Source: Marinomonas pollencensis (lineage in GTDB: Bacteria > Pseudomonadota > Gammaproteobacteria > Pseudomonadales > Marinomonadaceae). Taken from it: 64,000 nucleotides of DNA. Location of the stretch: assembly GCF_003387375.1 (NCBI RefSeq), contig NZ_QUNG01000010.1, positions 1 to 64,000 on the forward strand, read 5' to 3'. The position numbers and the translations under genes were made by a program. A model generated the notes under the pieces. It did not search any database. It worked only from the letters and a program-made list of their open reading frames with translations, and was not told the DNA's origin. Shown here one piece after another: positions 30,151 to 54,467 of the stretch (position 1 is the first letter of the stretch; the number at the start of each line of letters is the position of its first letter).

Positions 30151-30550
30151 GTTCATGATTTAAATAAAGATCAATGTTAAAGCTCTCACATTGCAAATAC
30201 AGTGTTCTTATACCCATGTTTATAGCTTTATTTTTCGCTGATTCTAGCAACGCATGAGCAACTCCCTTGCGCCTATAATCCTGGTTAGTGAACACGCCAC
30301 CTACCCAATATTCATATTCCGGATAGTTCTTGTTTTCGCGAATCTTTAGTTCGATGACACCAATAAGTTCACTATCAAGGTGGGCAACTAGCGACAAAGG
30401 GATCGAGTTTCGATTAACTGATTTCTCGATAACTTTTTCGAGTACTTTTTCTTCGGTGACATTTGGAGCAACCCTAGCCCACTCATCGTAGTACCACTTA
30501 GCTATTTTAGGAGCTTCATACGAATGATCCGCTAATAGTGAAATTTTCAT
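30146..30550 (-). pseudogene. GNAT acetyltransferase, 3' end lost
   Basis: 134 residues from the ATG at 30550 (GAGG 5 bases upstream). The GNAT fold is clear: LIGVIELKI, then the acetyl-CoA loop DYRRKGVAHALLESA and LYLQCESFN. The protein stops after DLYLNHEH, where the family continues with another 20 residues (YxxxGF). The stop is provided by the ATTAAAGTGCC end of repeat copy C, so the repeat has replaced the 3' end and the cassette's own attC. It is the last cassette of the array and is probably non-functional. Confidence 0.75.
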
Positions 30551-30564
30551 GTTTCCTCTTAACC

Positions 30565-30620
30565 ACATAACGCCTCAATAAGGGGTGCCGTAGGCGTCCC
30601 TCTTGATTGACTTGTTAAAC
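30565..30620 (-). other. attC site 1 (56 bp)
   Basis: ACATAAC at the left and GTTAAAC at the right enclose an inverted repeat (CGCCTCAATAAGGG against CCCTCTTGATTGACTTG). It ends the two-gene cassette to its right. Confidence 0.8.
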
Positions 30621-30635
30621 GTAAATGCACGATGC

Positions 30636-31115
30636 TTAATCTTTGGGGACATTTTCTTTTACCAATGCTATTTCAAAAACCCTAAAGAGTACCGATATTA
30701 TTTCTGCTATTACCACGAAAGACAAAATAACAACCATTATTTCAGCTGTCGTGAAAAGCATGTTCTTTGACGGCATAAGCTGCCATGTAGGATATTGAAG
30801 AAATACTATATCAATATTTCGTAAGTATGGAAGAAATACTGCTAAGAAAGTGCATCCAAGTAAAATATAGGCATCTAGCTTTAACCCTTTTACAAAAGAC
30901 AAAAACCTACCATTACTAGATGCAAATGTTTGAAGCTTTTCGCTTCGTGTAGTTAGCAAGCCGAAGATTATTGATATTGCAGAGATAATGCCACCCAATA
31001 ATGCTCCAAGAACGCCGCTAAGAGCACTTTCTAGAACTTTGTATGATTCATTGGCACTCGATGATAGCAGCAGTGAAACTATAAAAATTGATGAGAAGCC
31101 TATTACATATCTCAC
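30636..31115 (-). CDS. Unknown four-helix membrane protein (second gene of a two-gene cassette)
   Basis: 159 residues, four hydrophobic helices (about 3-20, 29-53, 78-100 and 121-145) with a short charged loop TTRSEKLQ and a charged tail. No family was recognised. Its start lies two bases after the stop of the 280-residue gene with no attC between them, so the two form one cassette and probably one functional unit. A small membrane protein paired with a soluble partner is a common design for phage-defence effectors, but that role is only a hypothesis. Confidence 0.75.
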   Translation of the reverse strand: MRYVIGFSSIFIVSLLLSSSANESYKVLESALSGVLGALLGGIISAISIIFGLLTTRSEKLQTFASSNGRFLSFVKGLKLDAYILLGCTFLAVFLPYLRNIDIVFLQYPTWQLMPSKNMLFTTAEIMVVILSFVVIAEIISVLFRVFEIALVKENVPKD

Positions 31116-31117
31116 TG

Positions 31118-31960
31118 CTATCTCCTGAAAGTATATTGTTCACGAATTACTTCAAGAATATCTTTAACATCGTCTGCAGAGTAACCATCGAGTTCAACCT
31201 CTGAAATATTTCCATCCACTGTTAATATTTTTGCTGTTTTTCTACTCTCAAGTTTCTTTGTTTTCTCATTATCATTTCGTTTCCCCCAGATAGACCAACT
31301 TCCACCACCATCCTTAGCCCAATCAACGAGTATGTTTACCCATTTTGAATTTCTTAGATTAAGAAAACCATCTTTGTTCTTGAATACAGGCTTAAACTCA
31401 GATGCATTGGTTTCATTGGATATGTCTTTCAGAAAACCACCCAACTCTTCTTTTGTACTACCAAATAAATTGGGAGTAGCCAAATCAAACTCTACTGTAG
31501 TGATATATTGTAACAAATCATATGAGTCCCAAAAACTATTATCAGTCAGTTTTGGGAAAATATGGGCTCTTAGCTTCTGTTCAGCAAGGTAAATATTGTT
31601 GCCTATCTGATCGAAAGCTTTAGCTGCAGATTTAGCACTAGAAAAAACATTAGTTTTTCTTTCTACCAAAATGACTTGCTCATACCTATCCCAAATCCAT
31701 AATACTGGAGGAAAATTATCTTCTTGGTGTGATTTAAACTCTCGATCGTGCAAATGCACTTCTGACTTCTTCGAAACGACTCCAGCCATTACTCCTGAAT
31801 CAGAATCATAGATTCTAACCTTGAGAGAGTAGCTTTCAAAAAGTTCAGATGATGAATCTAATGCCTTTTCAAAATGTCGAATATCTCTTTTAAGCTCTTC
31901 TTCTTTGAAGATTTCATCATTTCTTGGAAGTAATGAAACCTGTAGTAGATAAAAATCCAT
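31118..31960 (-). CDS. Unknown 280-residue soluble protein (first gene of a two-gene cassette)
   Basis: No signal peptide or membrane segment. Notable parts are WIWDRYEQVILVERKTNVF (about 88-106), an all-helical middle, and GGGSWSIWGKRNDNEK near residue 220. A short C-terminal beta-helix segment follows (KILTVDGNISEVELDGYSA). No catalytic motif was recognised. It heads a bicistronic cassette with the four-helix protein, coupled by a two-base gap. The intact frame and tight coupling argue that it is functional. Confidence 0.75.
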   Translation of the reverse strand: MDFYLLQVSLLPRNDEIFKEEELKRDIRHFEKALDSSSELFESYSLKVRIYDSDSGVMAGVVSKKSEVHLHDREFKSHQEDNFPPVLWIWDRYEQVILVERKTNVFSSAKSAAKAFDQIGNNIYLAEQKLRAHIFPKLTDNSFWDSYDLLQYITTVEFDLATPNLFGSTKEELGGFLKDISNETNASEFKPVFKNKDGFLNLRNSKWVNILVDWAKDGGGSWSIWGKRNDNEKTKKLESRKTAKILTVDGNISEVELDGYSADDVKDILEVIREQYTFRR

Positions 31961-31991
31961 TTTTGGATGTTTACTCCCATGTATGTTTTAC

Positions 31992-32063
31992 GTTTAACGC
32001 CGCGTTAAACGGCTGCGCTTTTCGCAGTCCGAGCCGTAGGCGATTTTGAACGCCTTGTTATGA
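31992..32063 (-). other. attC site 2 (72 bp)
   Basis: GTTTAAC (fits RYYYAAC) and GTTATGA flank an inverted repeat with GGCTGCG and CGCAGTCC near the apex. It ends the 331-residue cassette. Confidence 0.8.
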
Positions 32064-32064
32064 A

Positions 32065-33060
32065 TCACTTTTTCGAACTCTTGGACAGATTAGAAATAAT
32101 TTTAGATGTTTCTTGCACAACCTTTGACAAGTGCTCAATTTGGTCAACTGTATCAGCTTTAGATTGTTCGGTTCCAGTTTCCTCGCTTTGATTCAAAGCT
32201 GCTCTAACAAACGACGATAAGGCACCATTCTCGTTTGACAATACTGCACTCTCATACACTATTTGCTGGGTAGATATATTTGTAATTTCCTTTTGATAGT
32301 ATTTTATTTCAGTCAGGTTGGATTTGTACATTTTTAGAAAGAAAAATGAGAAGACCTCAATAAATATAACCACTGTCACCCTAGGTATATAATAAGAAAG
32401 GATACCGGTTAAAGATTCGAGTTTTGCATCTGTTCCTAAAACCATATATGTAAGCAACCCGACTGCAATCGATGTGGTTAGAACACCAATAACCAAATTT
32501 AAATTTGCTCGCCTTGTGAGAGTTTCAATTTCCTTGGACAACCTATCTATCGATTTTCGGTAATTATCCTTGGCCTGTCTCATTTGAGCCGTTGTTAAAG
32601 CTGCACTGGAATATTCTTTTTCTAATTCTGCGGCCAGATCACAGCTTATTGTATTTTTTAATTCATTTATCAACGCCTCTTGCTGCCCTTCTTCCAATTG
32701 AATTTGTGCGTAAGATACTTCCGTAATTTTCCTTTTTAGTTCATCCAAATCCTCTTGGACTATAGAAGAATTAGAGTCTTGCGATTCCCATGATGGCTTC
32801 ATTTTATTTGCCATCCGATCAACTATCGGAACCTTTATGCCACCTTTCAAATAAACCATTAGAAAGTAAGCGGCTCCAGCCGCTATTAAATATGCAGCGA
32901 CTCCTAATACAAACCTGATGTTTAAGTATAATAGTCCTGATATTAATTCAGCGTTAATCCAAACTAGAATGCCAATAATCGTTGGCGTAAAAATAAGTAC
33001 TAATCGAAGTCTGAAACGACGCTCTTCGCTAGACCGATTTTTTTCTATAGTCTCATTCAA
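32065..33060 (-). CDS. Unknown cassette protein: four membrane helices plus coiled coil
   Basis: 331 residues. Two helices lie near the N-terminus (about 20-42 and 46-70), then a long charged coiled-coil-like region (about 95-185). Two more helices follow (190-212 and 228-250), and a polar helical tail rich in E, S and K ends the protein. The family is not recognised. The stop lies a few bases from attC site 2, as usual in this array. The layout would suit a membrane-anchored oligomer, but nothing more can be claimed. Confidence 0.75.
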   Translation of the reverse strand: MNETIEKNRSSEERRFRLRLVLIFTPTIIGILVWINAELISGLLYLNIRFVLGVAAYLIAAGAAYFLMVYLKGGIKVPIVDRMANKMKPSWESQDSNSSIVQEDLDELKRKITEVSYAQIQLEEGQQEALINELKNTISCDLAAELEKEYSSAALTTAQMRQAKDNYRKSIDRLSKEIETLTRRANLNLVIGVLTTSIAVGLLTYMVLGTDAKLESLTGILSYYIPRVTVVIFIEVFSFFFLKMYKSNLTEIKYYQKEITNISTQQIVYESAVLSNENGALSSFVRAALNQSEETGTEQSKADTVDQIEHLSKVVQETSKIISNLSKSSKK

Positions 33061-33078
33061 TCGAGCTCTCCTTTTGAC

Positions 33079-33177
33079 TCATAACGCCTCAATCAGAGGC
33101 AAAAAATAGTTGGTTATAATTAGCGACTCAGGAGCAAAACCAACTGTTTTTTGTCCTGCTGAATTGACTTGTTAGGG
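33079..33177 (-). other. attC site 3 (99 bp)
   Basis: TCATAAC and GTTAGGG flank a long inverted repeat (AAAAAATAGTTGGTT against AACCAACTGTTTTTT). It ends the frameshifted 588-codon cassette. Confidence 0.85.
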
Positions 33178-34945
33178 CTATGGTTTACACAGTATGTGAG
33201 CTTGAACTCCAAAATCTTTACATGAACTTATAAACGTATTTATAAGCCAAATTAACTGCACATAGTGAGGCTTACATTTTTGACCCAAAGCTAATTTGTT
33301 TAATTCACCAGCCAATTTAGCCTTACTCAAAAAAGGTGTTGCAAGTACAATTTTCTTTATAGAGTTAGGGTTTTGATTTACAGCATCTAGAGCTACTTCT
33401 AAATCTTGCCAATTATTGGCACCAGTGACCCTACTAATATTTGTGTTTTCATAATTCTTGTGCCACTCATTATCATATTTATTCTTAAATAGTTGCTTTT
33501 CTGCTTGTGTTCGGCCAATGTTTTTTAATGCTTGAGCAACAACGTCATGAAAAGCACTAGCACCATATGTATCTTTCTTAATAAATTTAGAATGAATAAA
33601 AGAGATAGACGGAATAGCGCTATTGCTATCTATAGCAATATGATCAGCCCATTCGTCATTCATGTCATCACAGATAACAATATTGTGAGAAACACAATAT
33701 TGATCTTCCACTTTCCTAAATAGTGAATTGGCAGGAAACCTAGTTAAATTGACTGTATGCGGTTTCTCTTTTTCGCTAGCTATACCAGTAAAGTTATAAC
33801 TATCATCAAAAATATTAAGTATCGACTGAATGTTATTAACTAAGTGTTTATCTTCAAAACATGACTTTGAATAATATGAATAATTTGGTGAGTCGAAAAC
33901 AGCAGAAAAAGGCTTTTCTTTATTTATATAACTACCTATCGAATAAGTATCAGAACCATTTTCAGTCACGGAAATACTATCAAGGAGTTTATTTCTAATT
34001 GTAATTAGTTTTTTTGAGTATGATACTTTGCCCGATAAAGTGGTTCCTTTCACTTTCATTAAATTACCATCGACTAAAATTGGAGATTTTAATTGATTAA
34101 AAAACCTATTGATTTCTCCCCCATTTAATTGGCTACCATCAGCCTTAGTTAAAACAGCTACACCATTTAAAAACTTATTTTCTATTTCAGTCAAATCTAT
34201 CAGAATAGCCACGATTTTATGACCTAAACCTATAATATCCTTTAAGCAAATCGGAGAAGCAAAATTACGAAGAAACTCACTTTGATTGGTGGTTGCCTTG
34301 ATTTCCTCTTTAATCTCAACAACCCAGTCGACTAATCCATCAAATGCAGATTTTTTATCTCTATGACTAACTCTAGAAGTACTTGGTGTTAGTGTGTATG
34401 AGTCTGCTCCAACTTTCATTCTGAAGTTGCTTGGAATTGATCGGCTAGATGAATTAGATGAGACAATACCATTCAAACTTTTAGCTTCTAATGAACGGGA
34501 TCTAATTACCGCATTTGATATGCTCATATTTTTCATGGTAACTCTTTCATACTCAGGTTTTTTATCACCATGAAAATGACAGAATTTTTCATAATCAAAC
34601 TCATCTATAAAAGAAGAAAAAATTTTCTCAGGTGAATCTACATATTTCTTCAAAATAGCTAAGGCGTCATCACACTCTATTAATAACAAATAAGCGTACT
34701 TTTGTTCTTTAATCGAAGTGCCTTCTAAAAACGAGGGCTCTGCTTCTATCTTATATGAAACAATAGAATATATAACTTGATTACCCAATGCCGTTGTATG
34801 GTTTTTTTTTATGGTCGTTTAAAAGGTAATTTCCCACACGCTCTTGAGAGATCTCTTTAAATGTATCTTCGATAGATTTTTTGGTAAGTGCTTTATTCAG
34901 CTTATAAAACTGAACATTCTTGCTTAGACTTAAGTCGTTAATCAT
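33178..34945 (-). CDS. Large unknown cassette protein, interrupted at an A9 run
   Basis: The long frame (33178-34788) has only a TTG start and no ribosome site. Upstream, an ATG at 34945 opens a frame, MINDLSLSKNVQFYKL and on, that runs into a nine-A tract (34802-34810, T on the plus strand). Dropping one A joins both frames into 588 residues. Thus the gene has a frameshift in a homopolymer: mutation, sequencing error or programmed slippage. The C-terminal part (VICDDMNDEWADHIAID, SFIHSKF, ISRVTG) faintly recalls DUF6119/TIGR04141 proteins of unknown function. That link is weak. Confidence 0.65.
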
Positions 34946-34987
34946 TTTACTAAAATCCTTCTATGTATGACTAAACTAGCGAAACAG

Positions 34988-35044
34988 CCCTAACAATTAA
35001 GGGTTATACGGCAGCGTAGCTGCGGCTATAACCCACTGTTGAAC
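34988..35044 (-). other. attC site 4 (57 bp)
   Basis: CCCTAAC and GTTGAAC (fits GTTRRRY) flank AAGGGTTATA / TATAACCCACT. It is identical in its core to sites 14 and 17. It ends the first SIR2-remnant cassette. Confidence 0.8.
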
Positions 35045-35453
35045 GGCTGCGTGCTATATAGGGGATTTGCTTTTTTCATGGTGGGACGTCCCTGTTAAAT
35101 AACTCGCTTAATACCAAAGATTGTTTGGACTATGCCGCTTCAGATCGTCTTTGATCGCCGCTATGTTGGTTCTTTACGTGCCCTTTTGTAGCGTGATTTG
35201 ACCAGATAGGCAAGTGATTACCTTAGACCTTATGACCTGATCTGTTTTTATTCTCTGATCTCGCTAACGCTAACTGCCATTGTCCAATGACAGCATGATG
35301 CGAACCCGCTCTATCTCCTTACTCGCAGATACATCGCCAAGATACATCACAGTACTTTCGCCACAAGCAGGGCAGGATTTATCAGGACCAGGATTTATCA
35401 GGACAGGCATGCTAAGAACACCGAAAACACTGGGGACTTAAGGTGCCTGTCCC
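35045..35453 (-). repeat. Cassette-borne repeat element, copy 1
   Basis: About 410 bases shared with 42513-42904 and 44627-45005. The end towards the SIR2 fragment reads GGGACAGGCACCTTAAG on the minus strand, and a nearby GGACAGGCATGC gives an inverted arrangement. It has no open frame of note. It cuts the SIR2-like gene after about 52 codons. This resembles a non-autonomous (REP/MITE-like) insertion; no transposase is present. Confidence 0.7.
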
Positions 35454-35594
35454 ATTAGAAGCACTATCTGAAAAATTGAAAAGATTTGTATCGATTCTTT
35501 TTAAAACATTTTCGCGAAATGTAGCTGTAAATGGCCAAACAAGCGGCATCCCACACTCTATTGAAGCACCTGCGCCTAGGAAAAATACCAACAC
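35412..35594 (-). pseudogene. SIR2-like N-terminal fragment, copy 1
   Basis: The GTG-started frame encodes VLVFFLGAGASIECGMPLVW and then PFTATFRENVLKR. GAGAS-x4-GxP is the NAD-binding start of SIR2-family domains found in many anti-phage NADases. After about 52 codons it runs into the repeat element (GGGACAGGCACC) and stops. It therefore lacks the catalytic His region and must be non-functional. An almost identical copy lies at 42863-43045. Confidence 0.7.
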
Positions 35595-35614
35595 TCGGTA
35601 TGTACTTCTTGGAA

Positions 35615-35675
35615 ATCTAACGCCAAGCTCAGCGGCGCGCGCTTTTAGCGCGTCCGCTGAAGCTTTTTGTTAGAT
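35615..35675 (-). other. attC site 5 (61 bp)
   Basis: ATCTAAC and GTTAGAT fit both consensus boxes exactly. A GCGCGCGC / GCGCG stem-loop is at the apex. The PD-(D/E)XK gene reads into this site. Confidence 0.85.
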
Positions 35676-36570
35676 TTTGTTTTCTCCACTCGAAAAATTT
35701 CTTGCCGATTGTTCGTGTATTGTATTTTTCGTGCTGAATACCGATATTATTTTCATCAATATATTCAGCAAGAATGTAACGAGCCACTTCTTTATCCCCA
35801 GTCTCAATATTAAATACTTGAATCTGAGTGCTATCTCTTTTTACAACTCGGTATTCACCGCTTTTCGTTGTAATTGCGGTTTCTTCAAGTATCTCGCCAA
35901 TATCTTCACCGGCTCTCATGGTTTTCTGAGTTGAGGGCTCTGTAGTTAGAGAGCTATGACGAATAAATGCTTTTAAAGTATGACGCATGTATTCATTAAT
36001 AGGGTTAATTTTCCCAGCAACTTCCAACTCTAGTAATTCTTGAAGTATTTTTGATATGCAATTATCACCTGAACTCCAATGAATCCAATATTTTCCGTGT
36101 CCTTTTTTCCGTAGTTCCAAATTATTGAATTCAGCAGATAGCTGGCTATTACTGACCTTTGGAGTGAGAAAAATAATAGTGAGCTCTTTGATACTTGGCT
36201 CATCGGCGAGAATTGCCTGATAATATTCATCAAGCTGTTTTGGATTAGCAGCGCCAGTTTTAATTTTGTTCTCTATAATAATTCTATGGCATTCCTTTTT
36301 GTCGTTATTGAGCAATATTATCTGTATATCTATATCTTTTCTCTTTCCATTCAGTTGATATGGCTCTTCAAGCGAAACTTGCGAATCTATAAAACCCGAT
36401 GATGTTATCTCTTTAAATCTCTCGTCATCAATTGTTTGCAGAAGCTTTCTGATTACAGAATCACTTAAGCCGTGATCTTTGTTGCTATCCAATAGATAAC
36501 CGAGCATTGCTGACATGCTTGGTTCATGCAGCCTTGATTTTCCTTGACTCAATACTTGAAATATATTCAT
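35629..36570 (-). CDS. PD-(D/E)XK nuclease-like cassette protein
   Basis: 313 residues. KDIDIQIILLNND followed by RIIIENKIKTGAANPKQLDEYY (about 77-120) gives the D...(E)xK core of the PD-(D/E)XK superfamily, close to the PDDEXK_4 type with the start LHEPSMSAMLGYLL. Such proteins often belong to restriction or phage-defence loci. The C-terminal residues SFSGRAKSARR are encoded within attC site 5, so the protein tail is specified by the recombination site. There is no partner gene in the cassette. Confidence 0.8.
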   Translation of the reverse strand: MNIFQVLSQGKSRLHEPSMSAMLGYLLDSNKDHGLSDSVIRKLLQTIDDERFKEITSSGFIDSQVSLEEPYQLNGKRKDIDIQIILLNNDKKECHRIIIENKIKTGAANPKQLDEYYQAILADEPSIKELTIIFLTPKVSNSQLSAEFNNLELRKKGHGKYWIHWSSGDNCISKILQELLELEVAGKINPINEYMRHTLKAFIRHSSLTTEPSTQKTMRAGEDIGEILEETAITTKSGEYRVVKRDSTQIQVFNIETGDKEVARYILAEYIDENNIGIQHEKYNTRTIGKKFFEWRKQNLTKSFSGRAKSARR

Positions 36571-36583
36571 GACTTCCTGATAA

Positions 36584-36682
36584 ACCTAACGCTTACTTAA
36601 GCGGGAAAATATAGTTGGCTAAAATGTTGAACGGAGTGAAAACAGCCAACTGTATTTTTTCCGTTTGAAGCTCTTGTTAGCT
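36584..36682 (-). other. attC site 6 (99 bp)
   Basis: ACCTAAC and GTTAGCT flank AATATAGTTGGCT / AGCCAACTGTATT. It ends the HNH cassette. Confidence 0.85.
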
Positions 36683-37059
36683 TACTTTGTGAACACGATT
36701 TTTCTGAACAAACATACATCACTTAACATTTGGGTTCTTCGTCTAATGCCGTATTCTCGAACTATGGTAATTAACTCTTGTCGAGTAGGGTTCTCTGAAG
36801 TAGATTCATCAGCAGGATTCCAACGCCCTTTGATGTTCACATTACAAGTTTTACAGGATATGGCAATATTTTCATTAATATTCTCACCACCTTTAGATAA
36901 AGGAATAATATGATCTTTTTGCCACTCCTTATAATTATCCACAGTGGCTAATAAATCTTTATCGCAATACTCACATTTAAATCCCGCTCTAATTCCGAGG
37001 ATTACATCATTCTCACCCCATTGACCAGTATTAACGAGTGCTTCAATAACTTTATTCAT
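36682..37059 (-). CDS. HNH endonuclease
   Basis: 125 residues. Zinc-type HNH signature: CEYCDKD (about 29-35), the catalytic pair in KDHIIPLSKGGENINENIA, and SCKTCN closing the zinc site. It is close to McrA-like short HNH proteins. As a single-gene cassette it could act as a restriction or defence nuclease, or as a mobile-element nuclease. The stop overlaps the end of attC site 6. Confidence 0.88.
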   Translation of the reverse strand: MNKVIEALVNTGQWGENDVILGIRAGFKCEYCDKDLLATVDNYKEWQKDHIIPLSKGGENINENIAISCKTCNVNIKGRWNPADESTSENPTRQELITIVREYGIRRRTQMLSDVCLFRKIVFTK

Positions 37060-37075
37060 ACAAACTCCTTTTGTA

Positions 37076-37168
37076 AGCTAACGCCGTTTTAAGTTGAAAA
37101 GTACGGTGGGATATTATCGCGAAGCGATGGCCCGCTGTAATTTTTCAACTTGAAAACTCTTGTTATGC
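37076..37168 (-). other. attC site 7 (93 bp)
   Basis: AGCTAAC and GTTATGC flank TTTTAAGTTGAAAAGTAC / TTTTTCAACTTGAAAA. The next gene's stop codon (TAA) is inside GTTATGC. Confidence 0.85.
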
Positions 37169-37387
37169 GTTTTGTAATTCAATTAATAGAGCTTCAAGTT
37201 TACCTTTAATAACGGGTTCAACTGCCTCCATAATTAAGACGTTTACCAAATACTCATTAACGATAGATCTTTTCTCAAAAGGAATATCACTTATAGTTTT
37301 AGATGAAAGATCTTGGTTTAACTTTTGTACTGAATCAGCTGATAGATCATGTTCTTCTGGCAAAGTTAAAAATTGTTCTAAATTCAT
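37163..37387 (-). CDS. Small unknown cassette protein
   Basis: 74 residues from ATG 37387 (GAGG 9 bases upstream; an ATG five codons earlier is possible). It is acidic and mostly helical, with no motif recognised. The stop is formed by the attC core. Size and charge would suit an antitoxin or an anti-restriction mimic, but nothing supports a specific role. Confidence 0.6.
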   Translation of the reverse strand: MNLEQFLTLPEEHDLSADSVQKLNQDLSSKTISDIPFEKRSIVNEYLVNVLIMEAVEPVIKGKLEALLIELQNA

Positions 37388-37419
37388 ATTTAAGATCCTC
37401 AATGCTCATATAGAGAGAC

Positions 37420-37503
37420 GTATAACGCCCGCAGCAACCGCGGCTTAGTAGTGGAGCCGCAGGCGGAACGGAAAAGCCGTCGGCTTGCCTGCGCTTGTTA
37501 GAG
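37420..37503 (-). other. attC site 8 (84 bp)
   Basis: GTATAAC and GTTAGAG flank a GC-rich inverted repeat (GCCGCAGGCG and CGGCTTGCCTGCGC). Confidence 0.8.
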
Positions 37504-38187
37504 CTATACCTGCTCAAAACCTGCTCTGTTTCTGATAACATTAGTTTCTAAAAAGAACTCGTAATCGGATATCCATTTTTCAGCCGATGGTGATTCTATT
37601 TGATATTTTTTTAATACCGATCGTATCTGGCTTGGAGAAGGACACTCCCAACGTTCAAAATTCATCAGGTCATTTATTTCCTTATCTGCTTTCTTTTGCT
37701 CATCAGATGCATTTACGTTGATTTTGTTGGGGTCAGGCCTTTCCTCTACAGCATTGCGAATTGCACGCTGATAGATTATCGATATGCCTTTTTTCCAATC
37801 TTTTTCTGCAAGCTCTAACTGAGCCTCGGATGCACCTATGCCCTTTAATGCGTCAATAATGTTGTCGTGTAGTTCCAGCCTCTTCTTCAGCGACATTCCA
37901 CCCATAAAACTACCTGCCATGAGGTCAGTGAGCGTAGCTTCCGATGTTGTGGTGGCAACCTGCCTTAGCTGATCTATTGTTGCGGCCGCCTTTTCTATCT
38001 GCTCTTTCATTCTTGCCTTCACAGGCCCAAGCGAAAGCTCAGCCAAATCGCCAATCCTAGCCATAAAAGTTACGAACGCGCCACATAAAGCCGCTACCCA
38101 GCTTGTCGACTGGTCATCGAATTGTATGCCGATTACCACCGGTGCAATCAGCGTGAACGCTATCCCTGACCAAAATAATAAGTTCAA
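37504..38187 (-). CDS. Unknown cassette protein with two N-terminal membrane helices
   Basis: 227 residues. Two helices are at about 4-24 and 32-50, followed by a long helical cytoplasmic part (ARMKEQIEKAAATIDQLRQV, then charged segments). No enzyme motif is seen. The stop is adjacent to attC site 8. It shows the same general design as other cassette proteins here (N-terminal anchor plus helical domain). Confidence 0.7.
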   Translation of the reverse strand: MNLLFWSGIAFTLIAPVVIGIQFDDQSTSWVAALCGAFVTFMARIGDLAELSLGPVKARMKEQIEKAAATIDQLRQVATTTSEATLTDLMAGSFMGGMSLKKRLELHDNIIDALKGIGASEAQLELAEKDWKKGISIIYQRAIRNAVEERPDPNKINVNASDEQKKADKEINDLMNFERWECPSPSQIRSVLKKYQIESPSAEKWISDYEFFLETNVIRNRAGFEQV

Positions 38188-38209
38188 TCCTTTCTCTCCC
38201 TGCTTGGTG

Positions 38210-38281
38210 CTCTAACGCCGCGCTCTGCGGCAAATTTGAAGCGCAACGGAAAATTTGTCCGACAGCAGCGCCTTGTTAGCA
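38210..38281 (-). other. attC site 9 (72 bp)
   Basis: CTCTAAC and GTTAGCA flank GCCGCGCTCTGCGGCAAATTT / AAATTTGTCCGACAGCAGCGCC. The stop of the 252-residue gene lies in the site. Confidence 0.8.
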
Positions 38282-39034
38282 CTTTAGCCTACGCCGCCCA
38301 AGCATGACGAACTGCTGATGAAGGTTATAACACTCGGTGCTTTTCTCATTAAGTTCTTTAATTTGTAAATCGACATGTTCAGGCCAATCCCAGGCTCCCC
38401 GGTAGGCATCGGGAACAGCGGACAGCATAGGGCCAGTGTGAATATACCCAGAGCTTTGGGCTAGCCTATATATAAATTCATGCATTTTCTGATATAGCTC
38501 TTTGCGAGCAGCCTCAAGCTCCTGATCCAAAAACTCTGTCTCTGCGGTATTCCATGTGTCTACGAAGCGATCAATCTCGTCGGTATTGTTGTCATGGTAG
38601 GAGTTACCGAAGTCATGCTCTTTTAAAAGAACCGCCGATCTTGAGTTAGAGGGAAACTCTGCGAGAAATCTTTCAAACAACGCACGATCTACTGCCTCTA
38701 GCTCCTTTGCTTCGGTTGCTGCGATGTAACCGGTTTTATAAATAAAGTATCTGTTTGCGACGTTATGGATTAATGCTAATGCGATGAGAGAAAAGCCTAA
38801 AGTATAGTCAGCTGTGCTTGATTCTAGCTCTGCAAACGTGAATTGCACCCCAGAATTCAAGTTAAATGTTGCAACCAGCCAGTTGTAAAATATCTGCTTA
38901 AAAGCAGTTGGGGTCAGAATAATTGTTCCACCAACTGTAACAACAAACCACGTGAGCTTGTTGGTAAAGTCTGGGAACAAATATTTTTTACCAAGAGCAA
39001 TTACTAGTTCTTTTAGCTCTTTCTTTGAGATCAC
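38276..39034 (-). CDS. Unknown cassette membrane protein (252 residues)
   Basis: Hydrophobic segments at about 27-45 and 73-93. A helical soluble part (about 105-245) is rich in E, W and Y and contains GSYIHTGPMLSAVPDAYRGAW-like features around residue 200. No family was recognised. The stop codon lies in attC site 9. A GAG motif and a clear ATG support the start. Confidence 0.7.
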   Translation of the reverse strand: MISKKELKELVIALGKKYLFPDFTNKLTWFVVTVGGTIILTPTAFKQIFYNWLVATFNLNSGVQFTFAELESSTADYTLGFSLIALALIHNVANRYFIYKTGYIAATEAKELEAVDRALFERFLAEFPSNSRSAVLLKEHDFGNSYHDNNTDEIDRFVDTWNTAETEFLDQELEAARKELYQKMHEFIYRLAQSSGYIHTGPMLSAVPDAYRGAWDWPEHVDLQIKELNEKSTECYNLHQQFVMLGRRRLKC

Positions 39035-39051
39035 TCAGTGCTCCTTAAGAG

Positions 39052-39147
39052 TGCTAACGCCTCACTTAAGCGGACTAAAATAGTTGGTTATAATGTGAAG
39101 CGAAACCTAACCAACTGTTTTAGTTCCGTTTAAAGTTCTTGTTAAAT
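39052..39147 (-). other. attC site 10 (96 bp)
   Basis: TGCTAAC and GTTAAAT flank ACTAAAATAGTTGGTT / AACCAACTGTTTTAGT, closely related to the inner arms of sites 3 and 6. Confidence 0.85.
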
Positions 39148-39149
39148 GG

Positions 39150-39707
39150 CTACAGCATCATATTTAAATGAAGCATTGGTAAAAAACCACGCACTTTTTT
39201 AGCTACTTCTTTACTCATGGACTTTTTAATTTGTTCAATTTCATTTGAGTGCCAACAAATAATATATATTCCTACAAGTTTAGTAAGATCAAGGTTACCT
39301 TTTTTGCGCCACTCTCTTTCATGAGTCCAATCAACTTTGTCGTATTCATAACGCACATGTCGCCATTTTTGCTCTTTCGGGATCCAGTCTCCTTCGTTGT
39401 CAGGCAAATAAATTACAGGTCTAGCACCTAGTTTAAAAGCACCTTCTTTATTAAGAGCAATACCATAAAAACGATATCTAGCATCTTCCTTCTGCTCCGA
39501 CTTAGTAGCGAAATGTTTTAACGATGAGAGTGGTGTTTCTGTAAAACACACAGCAGAATTAGGGCCTTTTATAAAGCCCTTTTTACGACTTCCGATTAAT
39601 TCACCATCACTTAAAATTTGACATAAAACTTCGAGAGCAGAATTATCTTCTTTCTCTCTAGTCAAGTGAACCAATGAATTAACAATGTCACCTCGATGTT
39701 CGTGCAT
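39150..39707 (-). CDS. AbiGi-like abortive-infection family protein
   Basis: 185 residues. LVHLTREKEDNSALEVLCQI, VCFTETPLSSLKHF, YGIALNKEGAFKLGARPV then IY, and DWTHEREWR follow the order of conserved segments in AbiGi-type proteins (the antitoxin-like half of the lactococcal AbiG system) and in the ADP-ribosyltransferase-like 'DarT/DUF2971' neighbourhood. No AbiGii partner is in the cassette. It is an isolated cassette gene and so may act alone or with a partner elsewhere. Confidence 0.6.
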   Translation of the reverse strand: MHEHRGDIVNSLVHLTREKEDNSALEVLCQILSDGELIGSRKKGFIKGPNSAVCFTETPLSSLKHFATKSEQKEDARYRFYGIALNKEGAFKLGARPVIYLPDNEGDWIPKEQKWRHVRYEYDKVDWTHEREWRKKGNLDLTKLVGIYIICWHSNEIEQIKKSMSKEVAKKVRGFLPMLHLNMML

Positions 39708-39719
39708 AAAACTCCTGCC

Positions 39720-39794
39720 ATTTAACGCCTCAATAACCGGCGCAGATTTGCTGCGTCCGGCGCCGAAGGCGCGAAGTTGATTGACTTGTTAAGC
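39720..39794 (-). other. attC site 11 (75 bp)
   Basis: ATTTAAC and GTTAAGC fit the consensus exactly, with CCGGCGCAG / CGTCCGGCGCC at the stem. Confidence 0.85.
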
Positions 39795-40751
39795 TTATTC
39801 CTGCTCACAATTATCCGGCTCTTTCTCTAAAGATTGAATTGCTGGTTCCAAGAGATAATCTGGAATTTTTGGATCTAGACCCAATTGCTGCCACTTGATA
39901 AAAGTGGCTATAACAAAGTTTTGCAACCAAACAGTTGACTCTAGATCAAAGACTTTACCGGCATATGTATCATATTGTTGGTTTCCGCCAGCCATAATAT
40001 GAACAAACGGCGATGAATCTTTGTACTTTTTGTAGTCACTCAAATTCACGCCTGATGCTAATAAAGCAGAGAAATGTTCAGACTCATCTACTCTCTTTAG
40101 TGTTTTTTTAAAAGCATCTTGAAGATCGTGACTAACACCTGAATGCCCTAAGCTAGATGTAATAAAAAACTCTGAACTGGAATTTGGTATGAAGCTTGAA
40201 ACTGACAAAGAGGCATACTCAAAAGCACCTGCCGCAAGACAGGAAGCTGAATCGTAGTCTCCGTCTTCCAAATCTTGTTGAGCCTTTTCAAGGTACTTCC
40301 TTAAGCCCTCGTCATTAATAAAAGATATACGGCTAACTTGATCAAAGTCTATGTCGAAATAGCTATCAAATACTCGCTTTAAAAAGCGGTAAGAAAATAG
40401 ACGCCAATCATCCATACTACTCTCATCTGGCTCAATAACGTGATGCTGAACCATATTTCTCATTAGGTTGAGATTCCGTATTTCCTGACGGTAAGGAAGC
40501 TTTAAGGCTTTGTCTTTAAACTCTTGAAATTGATCCACTTCATTGAGCATGGATTCAAAGTCGATATTTAATTTTTTTTCATTCCGGATTTCATATTTTA
40601 GCAATATTGATTTGACTGCTATTTCGATTGATATATGGAAGTTATGAACCGCCATCATCTTATTTAGTGGGTCGTTTTTTCTCGAGCTTTCGATTCCATT
40701 TAGATGGAATTCTTTAGCTAAAAGAACCCTTTTTTGTATTACATCTTCCAT
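39795..40751 (-). CDS. Unknown helical cassette protein with HEPN-like Rx4H motif
   Basis: 318 residues, almost entirely helical. HNFHISIEIAVKSILLKYEI (about 36-55) followed by NLMRNMVQHH (R..H spacing of the HEPN RNase motif, near residue 96) resembles the HEPN/MAE_28990-like layout of a nucleotidyltransferase partner or toxin. No nucleotidyltransferase partner is adjacent. A second helical domain from about 165 contains SCLAAGAFEYASL, a repeat-like echo of the first helix. Ribonuclease activity is a hypothesis. Confidence 0.6.
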   Translation of the reverse strand: MEDVIQKRVLLAKEFHLNGIESSRKNDPLNKMMAVHNFHISIEIAVKSILLKYEIRNEKKLNIDFESMLNEVDQFQEFKDKALKLPYRQEIRNLNLMRNMVQHHVIEPDESSMDDWRLFSYRFLKRVFDSYFDIDFDQVSRISFINDEGLRKYLEKAQQDLEDGDYDSASCLAAGAFEYASLSVSSFIPNSSSEFFITSSLGHSGVSHDLQDAFKKTLKRVDESEHFSALLASGVNLSDYKKYKDSSPFVHIMAGGNQQYDTYAGKVFDLESTVWLQNFVIATFIKWQQLGLDPKIPDYLLEPAIQSLEKEPDNCEQE

Positions 40752-40773
40752 AACGATATTTCTCAGATTATTA

Positions 40774-40834
40774 GCTTAACGCCCGCGTAATAGGCGCGAG
40801 CTTGCGAGCGTCCTGATTGACGCGTTTGTTATAG
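40774..40834 (-). other. attC site 12 (61 bp)
   Basis: GCTTAAC and GTTATAG flank GCCCGCGTAATAGGCGCG / CGTCCTGATTGACGCG. Confidence 0.85.
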
Positions 40835-40836
40835 CC

Positions 40837-41943
40837 CTAACCTCGGGGTATAAGCTCTTGGCTTTCATGCTCATATTCTTCCAACTTCTTTTCTGCAACT
40901 CGCTGTATGTAACCATCCATTACACAATTACAAACAAGTTCGTTGAAAGATTCATTTTCTGTCATCAACTGAGAGACGGAGATAGTCTGTGTCTGATTAT
41001 TTCTATTGACCCGATATGTTTCTATATATGGGCTATCAAATTGATCGCAGAATATTTTAAGCTCTAAATCAAAGCTTTCTTCAGAGCGTAAAAAAATATA
41101 TGTATCAGATGTACAACTGGTATTTGCTTGTATATTGCCAATATTCCAAAAAAATCTATACACCTGGTCATTGTGATCACGCTTGATATCATAATGCACA
41201 GTTTGATGAGGGATAGATAACGCTGACAGTGATCCAAATTGGTTTCTGGCCTTTTCGCTCGGCAATGGAGGGAAGTCATCCTTTGTATTATCGGCACTCA
41301 CCCCTTTCTTTCGTGGTAACGTAATTTCTACTTTAACACCAGTAGCCAAGACTGGCGTGAGGTTAGTGATTTGTAGAGAAATTAACTCAGAGCCTCCCCA
41401 GATTTTTAAGAACTCACCTCGCTCCTTATAGAAATTTGGGTTACGCTCAATGTTACCAAAAGTATTTAAGACATTGTTCAACCCTTCCATATTGGGCAAG
41501 TTATAATTTACTTTGTATTCTGGAATTTCGTCTTCCGGAGGGGTAGCAACAATACAACCTCTTAGGTTAACAGAGTTGTCTTTGTATTGTTCTAAGTCGG
41601 CATTCAGTAGTTCTATACTCAGAATCGGCTTTTTTGGGATTTCAGATAACCGAAGATCAACCTGTTCTTTTCCTACTGTCATCAAGTAATGGTAAATAAG
41701 ACCTATTACTATCAAGAACAAACCAATCCAGTGGTTTGAACTGCCTTCCATAAAATTTCTTAAAATTTCGGAGCGACCAAATAAGCTTTCATACCCTGCA
41801 ATAACTATAGCTTGTACAATGTTTAACTGTGACTCAGCCACCAAAACTACGCCTAAGCCAATAATTATTCTTGCTATTACATTGTAGGCTTTGGGCCTGA
41901 TTATCGTGAGCAATCTATCCAGTCGCTCAAGCCAAATATCCAT
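40837..41943 (-). CDS. Unknown cassette membrane protein (368 residues)
   Basis: Two hydrophobic helices (about 18-43 and 69-88) precede a long soluble part of mixed alpha/beta type with many beta-strand-like segments (SLQITNLTPVLATGVKVEITL around 193-213), reminiscent of an immunoglobulin-like fold. The tail is rich in E. No enzyme motif is seen. It is a single-gene cassette. Confidence 0.7.
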   Translation of the reverse strand: MDIWLERLDRLLTIIRPKAYNVIARIIIGLGVVLVAESQLNIVQAIVIAGYESLFGRSEILRNFMEGSSNHWIGLFLIVIGLIYHYLMTVGKEQVDLRLSEIPKKPILSIELLNADLEQYKDNSVNLRGCIVATPPEDEIPEYKVNYNLPNMEGLNNVLNTFGNIERNPNFYKERGEFLKIWGGSELISLQITNLTPVLATGVKVEITLPRKKGVSADNTKDDFPPLPSEKARNQFGSLSALSIPHQTVHYDIKRDHNDQVYRFFWNIGNIQANTSCTSDTYIFLRSEESFDLELKIFCDQFDSPYIETYRVNRNNQTQTISVSQLMTENESFNELVCNCVMDGYIQRVAEKKLEEYEHESQELIPRG

Positions 41944-41973
41944 AAGTTAAGCATTCTCCTGAATTACATCAAA

Positions 41974-42056
41974 GCTATAACGCCCCAAGCAGGGGCATAT
42001 TTTGCGTTTTGAGCGCAGCGAAGCAAAATATGTCCCGCTGCCTTGGATTGTTATGC
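41974..42056 (-). other. attC site 13 (83 bp)
   Basis: GCTATAAC and GTTATGC flank GGGGCATATTTTGC / GCAAAATATGTCCC with a GAGCGCAGCGAAGC apex. Confidence 0.85.
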
Positions 42057-42437
42057 TCAGCGCTGCTTGACAAAGGTTTGCAACTTACGGATTGCTGCTA
42101 TCAATATTTCCGCCTTATTGAAATGGTACAAACCTGTTTCAAAGTACCCACACTGCTGCTTTGCAGCTGCGTAACCCTCAATTGCAACATCGAGTTTCTT
42201 GTTTTGCCGGTTCGAAAGCTTCCTACGCAAGGGAATAAAGGAAGCATTGTCGAGACTGTGCGCGTCATTCGGGAACTGACCTTTCTGAGCAATCAAAGCT
42301 TGACTCTCCAGCCTCTCATGCAGCGCATCCACAATTTCGTTGTACTCCTTTCGCCGGTCTCTCCCAATAGCTAATCGATTTCCAACTAGTCCCCCTACCA
42401 AAATACCGACAATGCCTGTGGCCAGCTCCGACAACAT
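42057..42437 (-). CDS. Small unknown cassette protein with one N-terminal helix
   Basis: 126 residues from ATG 42437 (MLSELATG). The helix ATGIVGILVGGLVGNRLAIG (about 5-24) is followed by a basic helical domain with RRKEYNEIVDALHERLE and RRKLSNRQNKK. Proteins of this look, with one membrane anchor and a helical cytoplasmic part, are frequent unknowns in marine integron arrays. An ATG nine codons upstream is less likely because it lies close to attC site 14. Confidence 0.65.
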   Translation of the reverse strand: MLSELATGIVGILVGGLVGNRLAIGRDRRKEYNEIVDALHERLESQALIAQKGQFPNDAHSLDNASFIPLRRKLSNRQNKKLDVAIEGYAAAKQQCGYFETGLYHFNKAEILIAAIRKLQTFVKQR

Positions 42438-42455
42438 CAACTTCTCCGATTTAGT

Positions 42456-42512
42456 GCATAACAATTAAGGGTTATACGGCAGCGTAGCTGCGGCTATAAC
42501 CCACTGTTGAAC
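42456..42512 (-). other. attC site 14 (57 bp)
   Basis: GCATAAC and GTTGAAC flank AAGGGTTATA / TATAACCCACT. The same site type as sites 4 and 17. It ends the second SIR2-remnant cassette. Confidence 0.8.
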
Positions 42513-42904
42513 GGCTGCGTGCTATATAGGATAGGGGATTTGCTTTTTTCATGATGGGACGTCCCTGTTAAATAACTCGCTTAATACCAAAGATTGTTTG
42601 GACTATGCCGCTTCAGATCGTCTTTGATCGCCGCTATGTTGGTTCTTTACATGCCCTTTTGTAGCGTGATTTGACCAGATAGGCAAGCGATTACCTCAGA
42701 CCTTATGACCTGATCTGTTTTTATACTCTGATCTCGCTAAGCGCTAACGCTAACTGCCATTGTCCCATGGCAGCATGATGCGAACCCGCTCTATCTCCTT
42801 ACTCGCAGATACATCACAGTACTCTCGCCACAAGCAGAGCAGGATTTATCAGGACATGCATGCTAAGAACATCGAAAACACTGGGGTCTTAAGGTGCCTG
42901 TCCC
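42513..42904 (-). repeat. Cassette-borne repeat element, copy 2
   Basis: Near-identical to copy 1 (35045-35453), with a few substitutions and small insertions/deletions (for example AAGCGCTAACGC near 42738 where copy 1 lacks four bases). The end next to the SIR2 fragment again reads GGGACAGGCACC on the minus strand. Confidence 0.7.
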
Positions 42905-43045
42905 ATTAGAAGCACTATCTGAAAAGTTGAAAAGATTTGTATCAATTCTTTTTAAAACATTTTCGCGAAATGTAGCTGTAAATGGCCAAACAAGCGGCAT
43001 CCCACACTCTATTGAAGCACCTGCGCCTAGGAAAAATACCAACAC
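42863..43045 (-). pseudogene. SIR2-like N-terminal fragment, copy 2
   Basis: Encodes the same FFLGAGASIECGMPLVW segment as the copy at 35412-35594 and is cut by the repeat element at the identical base. Thus the truncated cassette was duplicated after the insertion. No full-length copy exists in the window. Confidence 0.7.
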
Positions 43046-43065
43046 TCGGTATGTACTTCTTGGAA

Positions 43066-43177
43066 ATATAACGCCTTTGTAACAGGCTGATAAAGTTGGG
43101 TGACTTTTGGATTAAAGTGGCGCAGCCCCCCAAAAGGCGCACAGCTTTAATAGTCCTTATTGACAAACTTGTTAGGT
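43066..43177 (-). other. attC site 15 (112 bp)
   Basis: ATATAAC and GTTAGGT flank a long stem with GGCGCAGCC and GGCGCACAG loops. It ends the GIY-YIG cassette. Confidence 0.8.
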
Positions 43178-43179
43178 GC

Positions 43180-44010
43180 TTAGTTGGAGTTATAGCCAAA
43201 CTCTCTTGTTTTTAATATTTTTTTCCACCAAGTTTCTCGGCTAAGGATGACTTTATCGTCGGCTGTTGATTTAAATATATCTAGGACGCTATATCTGAAA
43301 TTTTCTTTTATATGGCTAGGGTCTAAGTTCTTCAGATCAATATTGCCGCCATGACAACTAATAACATATGAATTCCAACGCCCTAAGATCATATTTTCCC
43401 CGTAAGCTGAACCTACATACATTTTTCCGTTTGATGTGTCAGTGATGAGATAAACCCCCTTTTGATTGGCTAGTGCTGCTTTCCATGCTTCTTTACTAAT
43501 CACTCTAGTTAAATCTGACCAAGATAGGTCAATATTTTCATAACCTGGAAATAAATCATTATCAAATTTATCTGGCAAAATTTGCTCTATTAGACAATCA
43601 TCAATTACTGACTCAGCTAGCCGAACCATATTTTGCGATTTATTCTTGTATCTAATAATCAGCCTGCCACAGTACTTCTCATATTCTGGCAATGATTCGA
43701 ATTCATATCCCATGCCATTCAAGATATTCAAATCTTTTGTGACTTTACCAACATGAAACAAAAGCCATAAATTATCATCAATTTTTATGAAACCTAAATT
43801 TATTTGGCCAACTTTAAATGATTTATTTTTACTGTAATTCCAGTACTGACCATTAAGCATTGTTTCATGGTCAGCATTCTTATAAAAATCAGCTGGGCTC
43901 CAGTTACCATCAAACATTAAGTTAAACCTTATCTTTATGTTTGATAAGTTATCTAGGCGAAGAATTTCATTAAGGGAAATGTCTTTTGAGGTCATATGTG
44001 AATTCTGCAT
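43180..44010 (-). CDS. GIY-YIG nuclease-family cassette protein
   Basis: 276 residues. The GIY-YIG core is at the C-terminal half: KGVYLITDTSNGKMYVGSAYG (about 180-200), with R in LGRWNSYVI and E in LSRETWWKKIL near the end. The N-terminal 170 residues form an unrecognised domain. Architectures with an N-terminal recognition domain and a C-terminal GIY-YIG nuclease occur in restriction and homing enzymes. The stop codon is 3 bases after attC site 15, and attC site 16 lies just upstream. Confidence 0.8.
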   Translation of the reverse strand: MQNSHMTSKDISLNEILRLDNLSNIKIRFNLMFDGNWSPADFYKNADHETMLNGQYWNYSKNKSFKVGQINLGFIKIDDNLWLLFHVGKVTKDLNILNGMGYEFESLPEYEKYCGRLIIRYKNKSQNMVRLAESVIDDCLIEQILPDKFDNDLFPGYENIDLSWSDLTRVISKEAWKAALANQKGVYLITDTSNGKMYVGSAYGENMILGRWNSYVISCHGGNIDLKNLDPSHIKENFRYSVLDIFKSTADDKVILSRETWWKKILKTREFGYNSN

Positions 44011-44016
44011 TTTTGC

Positions 44017-44132
44017 ACCTAACGCCTTTGTAACAGGCTAATTTTTGTGAAGCAGTTTGTGTAATACTGACGCGCAGCGCCAACACAAAATGCGTAGCTA
44101 AAATTTGTCCTTGTTGACAAACTTGTTATATG
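44017..44132 (-). other. attC site 16 (116 bp)
   Basis: ACCTAAC and GTTATAT flank CGCCTTTGTAACAGG / TTGTCCTTGTTGACAAAC. Site 15 shares the same outer arms. Confidence 0.85.
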
Positions 44133-44147
44133 AATTAACCACTGAAG

Positions 44148-44552
44148 CTAAGCCCCTAATAATGGTAAATGCCTAACTTTCTTATACTTAAGCGAAAGTT
44201 CAATACAGTGCCGTAATATGGTTGTAGGCATAGGTTCGCTGAGCCGCAACACAATTGCTCTGTTTCCCTGAAATTCGAGATCATTTGAATATAGCTCCCG
44301 AAAAGTGTCTACAAGTTTGGTTTTACAATTAAAATATATAAAGTAACTATCTGGTGATTTTTGTTTCCAGTCAAAGCGTACCGTACTACCTGTTTTTACA
44401 AGATAACTAGGCTCACCCCATTTAAGAGTTTCTTCCACCTCACCTAAATTTTGCTCATGAACAATGTCGAGCACCAACGAACGAAGTTCCAGCAATATGC
44501 TTTTTGCATGTTCAGGGTAACCATCAAATTTTTTTCGAACTGCAAGTTGCAT
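44148..44552 (-). CDS. DUF1801 (YdhG-like) family protein
   Basis: 134 residues. LKWGEPSYLVKTGSTVRFDWK and YFIYFNCKTKLVDTFRELYS are typical of DUF1801 proteins (a small SCP-like/ribosome-associated fold of unknown function). It is the first intact cassette at the right (5') end of the array. Confidence 0.85.
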   Translation of the reverse strand: MQLAVRKKFDGYPEHAKSILLELRSLVLDIVHEQNLGEVEETLKWGEPSYLVKTGSTVRFDWKQKSPDSYFIYFNCKTKLVDTFRELYSNDLEFQGNRAIVLRLSEPMPTTILRHCIELSLKYKKVRHLPLLGA

Positions 44553-44569
44553 CATAAGCCTCCCTATTC

Positions 44570-44626
44570 ATATAACAATTAAGGGTTATACGGCAGCGTA
44601 GCTGCGGCTATAACCCACTGTTGAAC
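44570..44626 (-). other. attC site 17 (57 bp), array 5' end
   Basis: ATATAAC and GTTGAAC flank the same core as sites 4 and 14. It is followed by repeat copy 3 and then ordinary chromosome. No attI or integrase gene is seen beyond it. Confidence 0.8.
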
Positions 44627-45005
44627 GGCTGCGTGCTATATAGGGGATTTGCTTTTTTCATGGTGGGACGTCCCTGTTAAATAACTCGCTTAATACCAAA
44701 GATTGTTTGGACTATGCCGCTTCAGATCGTCTTTGATCGCCGCTATGTTGGTTCTTTACGTGCCCTTTTGTAGCGTGATTTGACCAGATAGGCAAGCGAT
44801 TACCTCAGACCTTATGACCTGATCTGTTTTTATACTCTGATCTCGCTAAGCGCTAACCCTAACTGCCATGGCAGCATGATTCGAACCCGCTCTATCTCCT
44901 TACTCGCAGATACATCACAGTACTCTCGCCACAAGCAGAGCAGGATTTATCAGGACAGGCATGCTAAGAACATCGAAAACGCTGGGGTCTTAAGGTGCCT
45001 GTCCC
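44627..45005 (-). repeat. Cassette-borne repeat element, copy 3
   Basis: Same sequence as copies 1 and 2 up to GGTGCCTGTCCC, but no SIR2 fragment follows; the flank is GTTAAAAGAAGCAAGTTCAAT. The attC plus element therefore spread as a unit, or the cassette end was lost by recombination. Confidence 0.7.
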
Positions 45006-45124
45006 GTTAAAAGAAGCAAGTTCAATGATTTATCAGGACAGGCATGCTAAGAATAGGCATGCTAAGAATATCGAAAACACTGGGGTCTTAAGGTGCCTGT
45101 CCCGTTAAAAGAAGCAAGTTCAAT
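44944..45124 (+). repeat. Tandem duplication of the element's end
   Basis: GATTTATCAGGACAGGCATG ... GCAAGTTCAAT (83 bp, 44944-45026) is followed directly by a second copy of 98 bp (45027-45124), which itself contains an extra repeat of AGGCATGCTAAGAAT. Each unit carries GGACAGGCA and TGCCTGTCC in inverted orientation. Confidence 0.85.

Positions 45125-54316: not shown

Positions 54317-54467
<151 letters not shown>

Follow-up and report, generated by a model that had tools for sequence, protein, structure and literature searches.

The window analysed here (64,000 nucleotides, positions 1 to 64,000 of contig NZ_QUNG01000010.1 of Marinomonas pollencensis, assembly GCF_003387375.1) contains, between positions 30,565 and 44,626, an array of 17 attC sites with the gene cassettes between them. 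Most probably this is a sedentary chromosomal integron cassette array that lost its integrase gene (intI) and its attI site in place. Formally it is a cluster of attC sites lacking an integron integrase (CALIN), as an initial annotation made from the sequence alone had proposed; that label was borne out, with an attC cluster present, no attI in the window and no intI over the cut-off anywhere in the genome.

All 17 annotated attC sites were confirmed at their positions and fell into two classes, 14 of type A and three of type B. Type A sites have the form TAACAA...GCGTTA on the minus strand and were scored with R1, a covariance model for which these same 14 sites served as input, so that the test is partly circular. 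They lie at 30566–30620 (the last of the array, 51.1 bits), 31993–32063 (46.4 bits), 33080–33177 (74.8 bits), 35616–35675 (48.2 bits), 36585–36682 (61.8 bits), 37077–37168 (51.7 bits), 37421–37503 (39.5 bits), 38211–38281 (50.0 bits), 39053–39147 (59.0 bits), 39721–39794 (49.8 bits), 40775–40834 (54.1 bits), 41976–42056 (50.6 bits), 43067–43177 (65.2 bits) and 44018–44131 (65.4 bits). When the window was searched, R1 matched all 14 at E <= 1.1e-7, well over the roughly five sites set beforehand for a covariance-model check, and also gave a chance-level match at 12935 (E 0.27). Under a hand-made structure, pairing was kept in 87.6% of 210 cells compared with 67.2% (standard deviation 2.0) in shuffles, and covariation reached 0.475 compared with at most 0.158 in slid structures; type A sites carry both RYYYAAC- and GTTRRRY-like boxes and paired arms with covariation. 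A model-free test returned 13 sites on the minus strand, which is that of the array, none on the plus strand and none in 45 kb taken from the remainder of the window, while 500 Markov-simulated control sequences gave a mean of 0.016 and a maximum of one site per sequence. The main open reading frames (ORFs) of the array share the minus strand, with mostly a single one to each site, again as annotated, and the 5' side of the array is its right-hand side, where cbiX lies at 45565.

A further attC-like site was observed on the minus strand at 27822–27891 (R1 E 2.8e-4), directly after a LysR gene and to the left of the AbiEii and DUF6088 genes; the old array may therefore once have extended further.

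The absence of an integrase was judged by TIGR02249 matches over the cut-off in a draft assembly of 42 contigs, whose completeness is given as 99.99%. No intI over the cut-off was found in these 42 contigs. The sole matches were two under-cut-off pieces of a phage-type integrase at C3:337408, which was rejected as an IntI candidate for its score and because it is in two pieces. Within the window, the attI profile R2 (described below) had no match, and tblastn with the IntI of the relative G012 revealed no IntI remnant (best E 1.3). With 14 type A and three type B attC sites and no integrase over the cut-off nearby in this draft assembly, the array belongs among CALINs; its head has neither intI nor attI, and it is thus not a complete sedentary chromosomal integron. 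Elsewhere in the genome, attI matches were present at C1:127340 and C4:9079, both with attC downstream, and further attC places without intI at C1:1464, C1:2752, C1:131180, C5:164993, C11 and C4. No cassette sharing was found between the window array and other arrays of the same genome.

The same chromosomal locus could be followed into related Marinomonas. Directly beyond the 5' side of the array, where an integrase would have refuted the initial annotation, lies a cbiX–cobN flank; cbiX (45565–46797, minus strand, Pfam PF01903) is the neighbour at the same place in four relatives (loci L010, L019, L023 and L151), and the window CbiX and its counterpart in Marinomonas sp. KMM3893 share 97% identity. 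The 3' flank consists of DUF6088 and AbiEii genes (28661–29975, plus strand) common to L010 and L151 (AbiEii in fragments). In G012 (L151) the order is cobN, cbiX, spacer, intI, attI, three attC sites, then DUF6088 and AbiEii fragments. In KMM3893 (L010) it is cobN, cbiX, a repeat-rich spacer, attI, an IS110-family element sitting in the attI core, attC, then AbiEii and DUF6088, with six R1 attC matches (weakest E 0.028). In L019 and L023, attI comes just past cbiX and is followed later by attC. The genomes holding L010, L019 and L023, of which that of L023 is a 2.5-Mb metagenome-assembled genome, gave no IntI match at E <= 1e-20. At this locus four relatives therefore retain attI, of which only G012 also retains intI, and the window has neither; because intI sits at the same locus in G012, we read the window array as a decayed integron.

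IS110-family elements with the same start in the attI core were seen at L010 (12841–14155), L138, L156 and L222, in L156 beside intI. The spacer between cbiX and intI in G012 (L151, 5700–8600) contains repeated blocks around a short-chain dehydrogenase gene and, by eye, a second attI-like stretch.

The three type B sites (34991–35044, 42459–42512 and 44573–44626, all on the minus strand) gave no R1 match in the window search, R1 having been built from type A alone. In circular form, their boxes read GTTCAAC and GTTGAAC, in agreement with RYYYAAC/GTTRRRY, and the circularly joined 57-nt site folds fully at −28.0 kcal/mol. Their hairpin is that of the 3' ends of full elements in relatives encoding a tyrosine recombinase and an IS91-family transposase, and the third site lies where relatives have attI. 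Judged from their sequence, these sites are probably a second attC type, forming the 3' end of a recombinase–IS91 cassette of which the window has truncated remnants only.

Two of these remnants are composite gene-less cassettes on the minus strand. The first (34991–35624) is made up of a SIR2-like gene start, a hairpin resembling repetitive extragenic palindromic (REP) sequences (PMC8266576), the C-terminal end of an IS91 transposase and the type B attC, its downstream part being 87–91% identical in relatives. The second (42459–43075) is 91% identical to the first. Both copies end within 4 bp of crossovers on either side, and they therefore represent one gene-less cassette placed twice. The 66-aa SIR2-like piece was matched by PADLOC (E 6e-4 and 4e-3) and had no match in Pfam. 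The third remnant (44573–45013, minus strand) is a truncated 3' end of the recombinase–IS91 cassette, 95% identical to copy 2, without the SIR2-like part and fused to a REP-like flank; a REP-like repeat of the cbiX spacer at 45057–45111 (minus strand) is the same as that inside the composite cassettes (95% over 55 bp). An RNA family or group II intron was considered for the 640-bp repeats and dropped, there being no Rfam match. Promoter activity in gene-less cassettes is reported from Vibrionaceae (PMC11014356); a plain promoter cassette was rejected here, given the SIR2-like start, REP-like hairpin and transposase end of the repeat.

The full element in relatives encodes a tyrosine recombinase (PF13495, PF00589) and an IS91-family transposase, the latter assigned by NF033538 (377.5 bits, cut-off 125), PF04986 and PF14319. 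Its recombinase is not IntI, scoring 167.1 bits with TIGR02249 where the cut-off is 265. After IntI matches (about 28% identity) had been set aside, 17 recombinase matches of at least 46% identity were left, 15 of which came with loci; of the remaining two, one is the rest of a counted copy and the other, G015:C99, was left out. The element start is included in 14 of the 15 loci (L176 is cut by the contig end), and in all 14 it lies directly after a crossover, nine times that of attI and five times that of attC. The five attC sites were also matched by R1 (E 2.4e-6 to 3.6e-3), and eight of the nine attI cases had been in the R2 training alignment, the ninth (L193, 62 bits) not. An additional start, in an element cut by a contig end in L158 (G023), follows attC, bringing the readable starts at crossovers to 15/15, in 10 genomes. 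The 3' ends that were found have the same hairpin as the window type B sites.

Some IS91-family elements carry an upstream tyrosine recombinase gene; the Marinomonas element resembles these in its gene pair and 3' hairpin and differs in its position at attI/attC crossovers. IS91 elements also have fixed targets and transpose in a one-ended manner, and type B could accordingly be no attC but just the hairpin at the end of an IS91-type element, whose rolling-circle transposition would be aimed at the GTTA core of attI and attC. The identity of the hairpin with the 3' end of a transposase-bearing element favours this explanation, which keeps some weight and is nonetheless unlikely: the outer boxes of the type B circle conform to the attC consensus and the circle folds completely, the 5' start of the element is also placed at a crossover in every readable case, and either side of the composite copies in the window is bounded by attC, with no transposase present. 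The recombinase–IS91 element is best read as a putative gene cassette with its own attC.

Replacement of IntI by the IS91-linked recombinase was considered and dropped, as no link was shown: none of the nine attI-inserted copies adjoins an intI over the cut-off, yet most listed attI are also without intI, and one element start, in G023 (L158), belongs to an array with intI. Two neighbouring observations concern a cassette gene, dihydrofolate reductase-like by eye, after recombinase–IS91 cassettes in G001 (L159, 1343–1813), and a recombinase gene in attI followed by a REP-type transposase-like gene (by eye), not an IS91 transposase, in G003 (L164, 6776–8711).

The distribution of attI was surveyed in 48 Marinomonas genomes with R2, a profile made from 24 aligned attI (16 beside intI and eight carrying the recombinase–IS91 cassette). 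Counts refer to the best 150 matches, the lowest of which score about 50 bits; the summed total of 347 matches was not used because antisense half-matches inflate it. The best 150 were spread over 40 of the 48 genomes, and only 17, some of which had trained R2, lay within 2 kb of an intI over the cut-off. The other 133 were divided between genomes without such an intI (83) and genomes with intI elsewhere (50). Overall, intI over the cut-off was present in 18/48 genomes. Seven genomes are single contigs, and five of these (G020, G027, G028, G029 and G039) had no intI over the cut-off, all with attI matches. The family holds only the genus Marinomonas, so 20 named genomes of other genera served as an outgroup control, in which R2 matched four at E <= 1e-3 (best 32 bits). 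Seven of these weaker, attI-like matches, with the same best score, were in Oceanospirillum maris (G059; L256) and suggest that dispersed attI may extend outside Marinomonas.

The surroundings of 28 attI were tested, namely 27 of at least 49.8 bits in 20 hand-picked regions (several per genome) and the C4 copy of the window genome (37.6 bits), leaving out a partial 38-bit match at L246:5672 and weaker or antisense matches. A same-strand attC was found within 1.5 kb downstream in 26/28, compared with any attC within 1.5 kb upstream in 4/28. These copies match the profile of intI-adjacent attI, and their cassettes begin immediately past the G|TT crossover. A complete intI was absent from all 20 regions, one retaining intI fragments. 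The stretch conserved upstream of the attI core measured 98–488 bp at 20 loci without complete intI, some of them cut by contig ends, and some dispersed copies retain the first codons of intI, a pattern which fits repeated intI loss from dispersed complete integrons. The idea that the attI copies are themselves cassettes was dropped, their right ends being exact and their left ends variable.

G027, a single-contig genome without an intI over the cut-off, has two whole cassettes in common between attI-headed arrays at different places, one of 350 bp (99.1% identical) and one of 531 bp (99.2% identical), their ends lying within 10 bp of crossovers; in a third shared block, of 549 bp, no attC was recognised at one end. 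This points to probable past exchange of cassettes between G027 arrays. No whole cassette was common to different arrays in the sampled arrays of eight other genomes, four of which have intI (G012, G013, G040 and G043); the two composite copies of the window belong to a single array.

The dispersed matches might instead not be attI but look-alikes belonging to a promoter or REP-type repeat family. They do occur with or without intI and vary on their left side, and the antisense half-matches reveal internal inverted similarity; such an origin is nevertheless improbable in view of the strong downstream bias of same-strand attC and of the two cassettes, about 99% identical, whose exchange between attI-headed arrays (two pairs) falls exactly at crossovers. 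Tentatively, and at somewhat less than even confidence, we propose that Marinomonas harbours a distributed integron, in which many attI heads, scattered along the chromosome together with their upstream region and each at the front of its own array, would receive cassettes exchanged by an integrase acting in trans and often lost, the recombinase–IS91 cassette would also move through attI and attC, possibly by its own enzyme, and the window array would be one relic.

For the window itself, the following course of events would account for the present arrangement. The ancestral locus would have been cobN–cbiX–spacer–intI–attI–cassettes–abiE genes, an order still present in G012, with IntI inserting and shuffling cassettes in circular form at G|TT, the crossover of attI and attC. 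A cassette with tyrosine recombinase and IS91 transposase would also have joined the array, and would then have been truncated, fused to the SIR2-like gene start and placed twice as one composite cassette. At the right end, a truncated cassette would have become joined to the REP-like repeat of the cbiX spacer, in a recombination of two REP-like copies by which intI, attI and the SIR2-like part were all lost at once. We infer this deletion route because the repeat at 45057–45111 is 95% identical to the cassette repeat and copy 3 occupies the place of the relatives' attI. The remaining array would be frozen unless an integrase acts in trans.

Several observations weigh against this account of decay in place. 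When R1 was applied to 33 Marinomonas cbiX loci, 29 were without attC within the fetched flanks, attC followed cbiX only in L010, L019 and L023, and L028 had two attC sites, only far upstream of cbiX; the site is therefore occupied in few species. Neither L010 nor L151 yielded any cassette gene of the window, so that the flanks and the site, and not the cassettes, speak for continuity. Intermediates of the deletion were not observed. KMM3893 lost intI and kept attI; loss of intI may therefore predate the REP deletion or be separate from it.

Two further alternatives are very unlikely, to about the same degree. The array may never have had its own integrase, its cassettes having been inserted singly by an integrase in trans at attG-like sites (for attG insertion, see Loot et al. 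2024, as cited in PMC12444791). The other attC places without intI in the window genome are in line with this; against it stand intI and attI at the same locus in G012 and attI there in three more relatives. Alternatively, the intI of the strain might be hidden in an assembly gap and the array mobile today, as the draft state of the assembly and a contig, C1, beginning in a stretch with attC sites would allow; the stated completeness, the like absence of an IntI match in KMM3893 and the five single-contig genomes that have attI matches and no intI over the cut-off speak against it.

Integrons are described as having one integrase, typically one attI, and one array. The window CALIN is ordinary in itself; its context is unusual, with many attI-headed arrays, few integrases and a recombinase–transposase cassette placed precisely at attI/attC. 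Published systems were compared on the basis of excerpts of the cited reports. CALINs, as defined for IntegronFinder 2.0, are attC clusters without intI, thought of as degraded integrons, and attI is there said to have been little characterised and to go undetected except in class 1 (PMC9024848). The window array shares the attC cluster without intI, and differs from the CALINs of that excerpt in that its lost head can be identified in relatives and three of its sites come from recombinase–IS91 cassettes. Xanthomonas integrons at ilvD (PMC12444791) show a similar loss of intI in place and further CALINs at other chromosomal places; the other arrays examined in Marinomonas mostly start with an attI copy, which is not mentioned for Xanthomonas in the excerpt. 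In a Shewanella integron, the IS91-like ISShvi3 lies beside attC, likewise within a cassette structure, and IS110-family elements occur in Shewanella integrons too (PMC9229058). The Marinomonas element, unlike ISShvi3 as described in that excerpt, adds a tyrosine recombinase and starts at attI/attC crossovers in all 15 readable cases. Delta-attI cassettes of mobile integrons, which recombine, also place attI sequence away from its intI (PMC12901181), whereas Marinomonas has whole attI regions, roughly 100–490 bp, heading chromosomal arrays. Among the literature matches listed, dispersed attI heads were not found in titles and the starts of abstracts.

The large majority of the best 150 attI matches have no integrase next to them, and those whose surroundings were examined mostly stand at the front of an array. 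If these heads are, or recently were, served in trans, CALIN would be too coarse a label: some arrays so classed may belong to one shared system as attI-headed platforms, overlooked because searches for attI do not go beyond class 1. The one-locus series from the complete integron of G012 through KMM3893, with attI only, to the headless window array makes integrase loss directly testable, and the recombinase–IS91 cassette may bring its own mobility.

The cassette genes, all on the minus strand, were characterised by ORF and family searches. From the 5' side, the first (44148–44555) encodes a DUF1801 protein (Pfam PF08818, E 2.9e-8) and is followed by a GIY-YIG nuclease gene, UzuA-like (43180–44010; PADLOC UzuA 204 bits, PF01541 E 7.8e-6). 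Two genes without family (42057–42464 and 40837–41943) precede weak HEPN (39795–40751; PF05168 E 3.2e-4, under its cut-off) and AbiGi-like (39150–39707; PF10899 E 1.3e-4, at its cut-off; PADLOC 20 bits) candidates. Then come three more genes without family (38276–39034, 37504–38187 and the small 37163–37402), an HNH endonuclease gene (36682–37059; PF01844 E 5.6e-11) and a PD-(D/E)XK nuclease gene (35629–36570; PF14281 E 2.6e-14; weak PDC-S26). The gene at 33178–34788 is a candidate phage-defence PDC-S71 (PADLOC 756 bits, profile positions 55–589 of 589); its likely N-terminal part lies in another frame near a run of T (34788–34950), indicating a frameshift or sequencing error. A gene without confident family (32065–33060) and two without family (31118–31960 and 30636–31115) complete the cassettes, and a GNAT acetyltransferase gene (30146–30568, minus strand; PF00583 E 1e-12) lies beyond the last attC.

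The initial annotation had suggested that the cassettes may be expressed from promoters of their own; promoter-like matches were not in excess, being fewer than in shuffles (29, compared with a mean of 42). Strong PADLOC phage-defence matches were obtained for two cassette proteins (PDC-S71 and UzuA) and weak ones for PDC-S26, PtuB, AbiGi and SduA; three of nine cassette proteins in one search, and seven further ones, had no PADLOC match. By these profile matches, the cargo leans toward predicted nucleases and possible defence, with about half of it lacking a family. Elsewhere in the window, an FMN riboswitch was located at 54313–54469 and a tandem pair of glycine riboswitch aptamers at 15905–16107.

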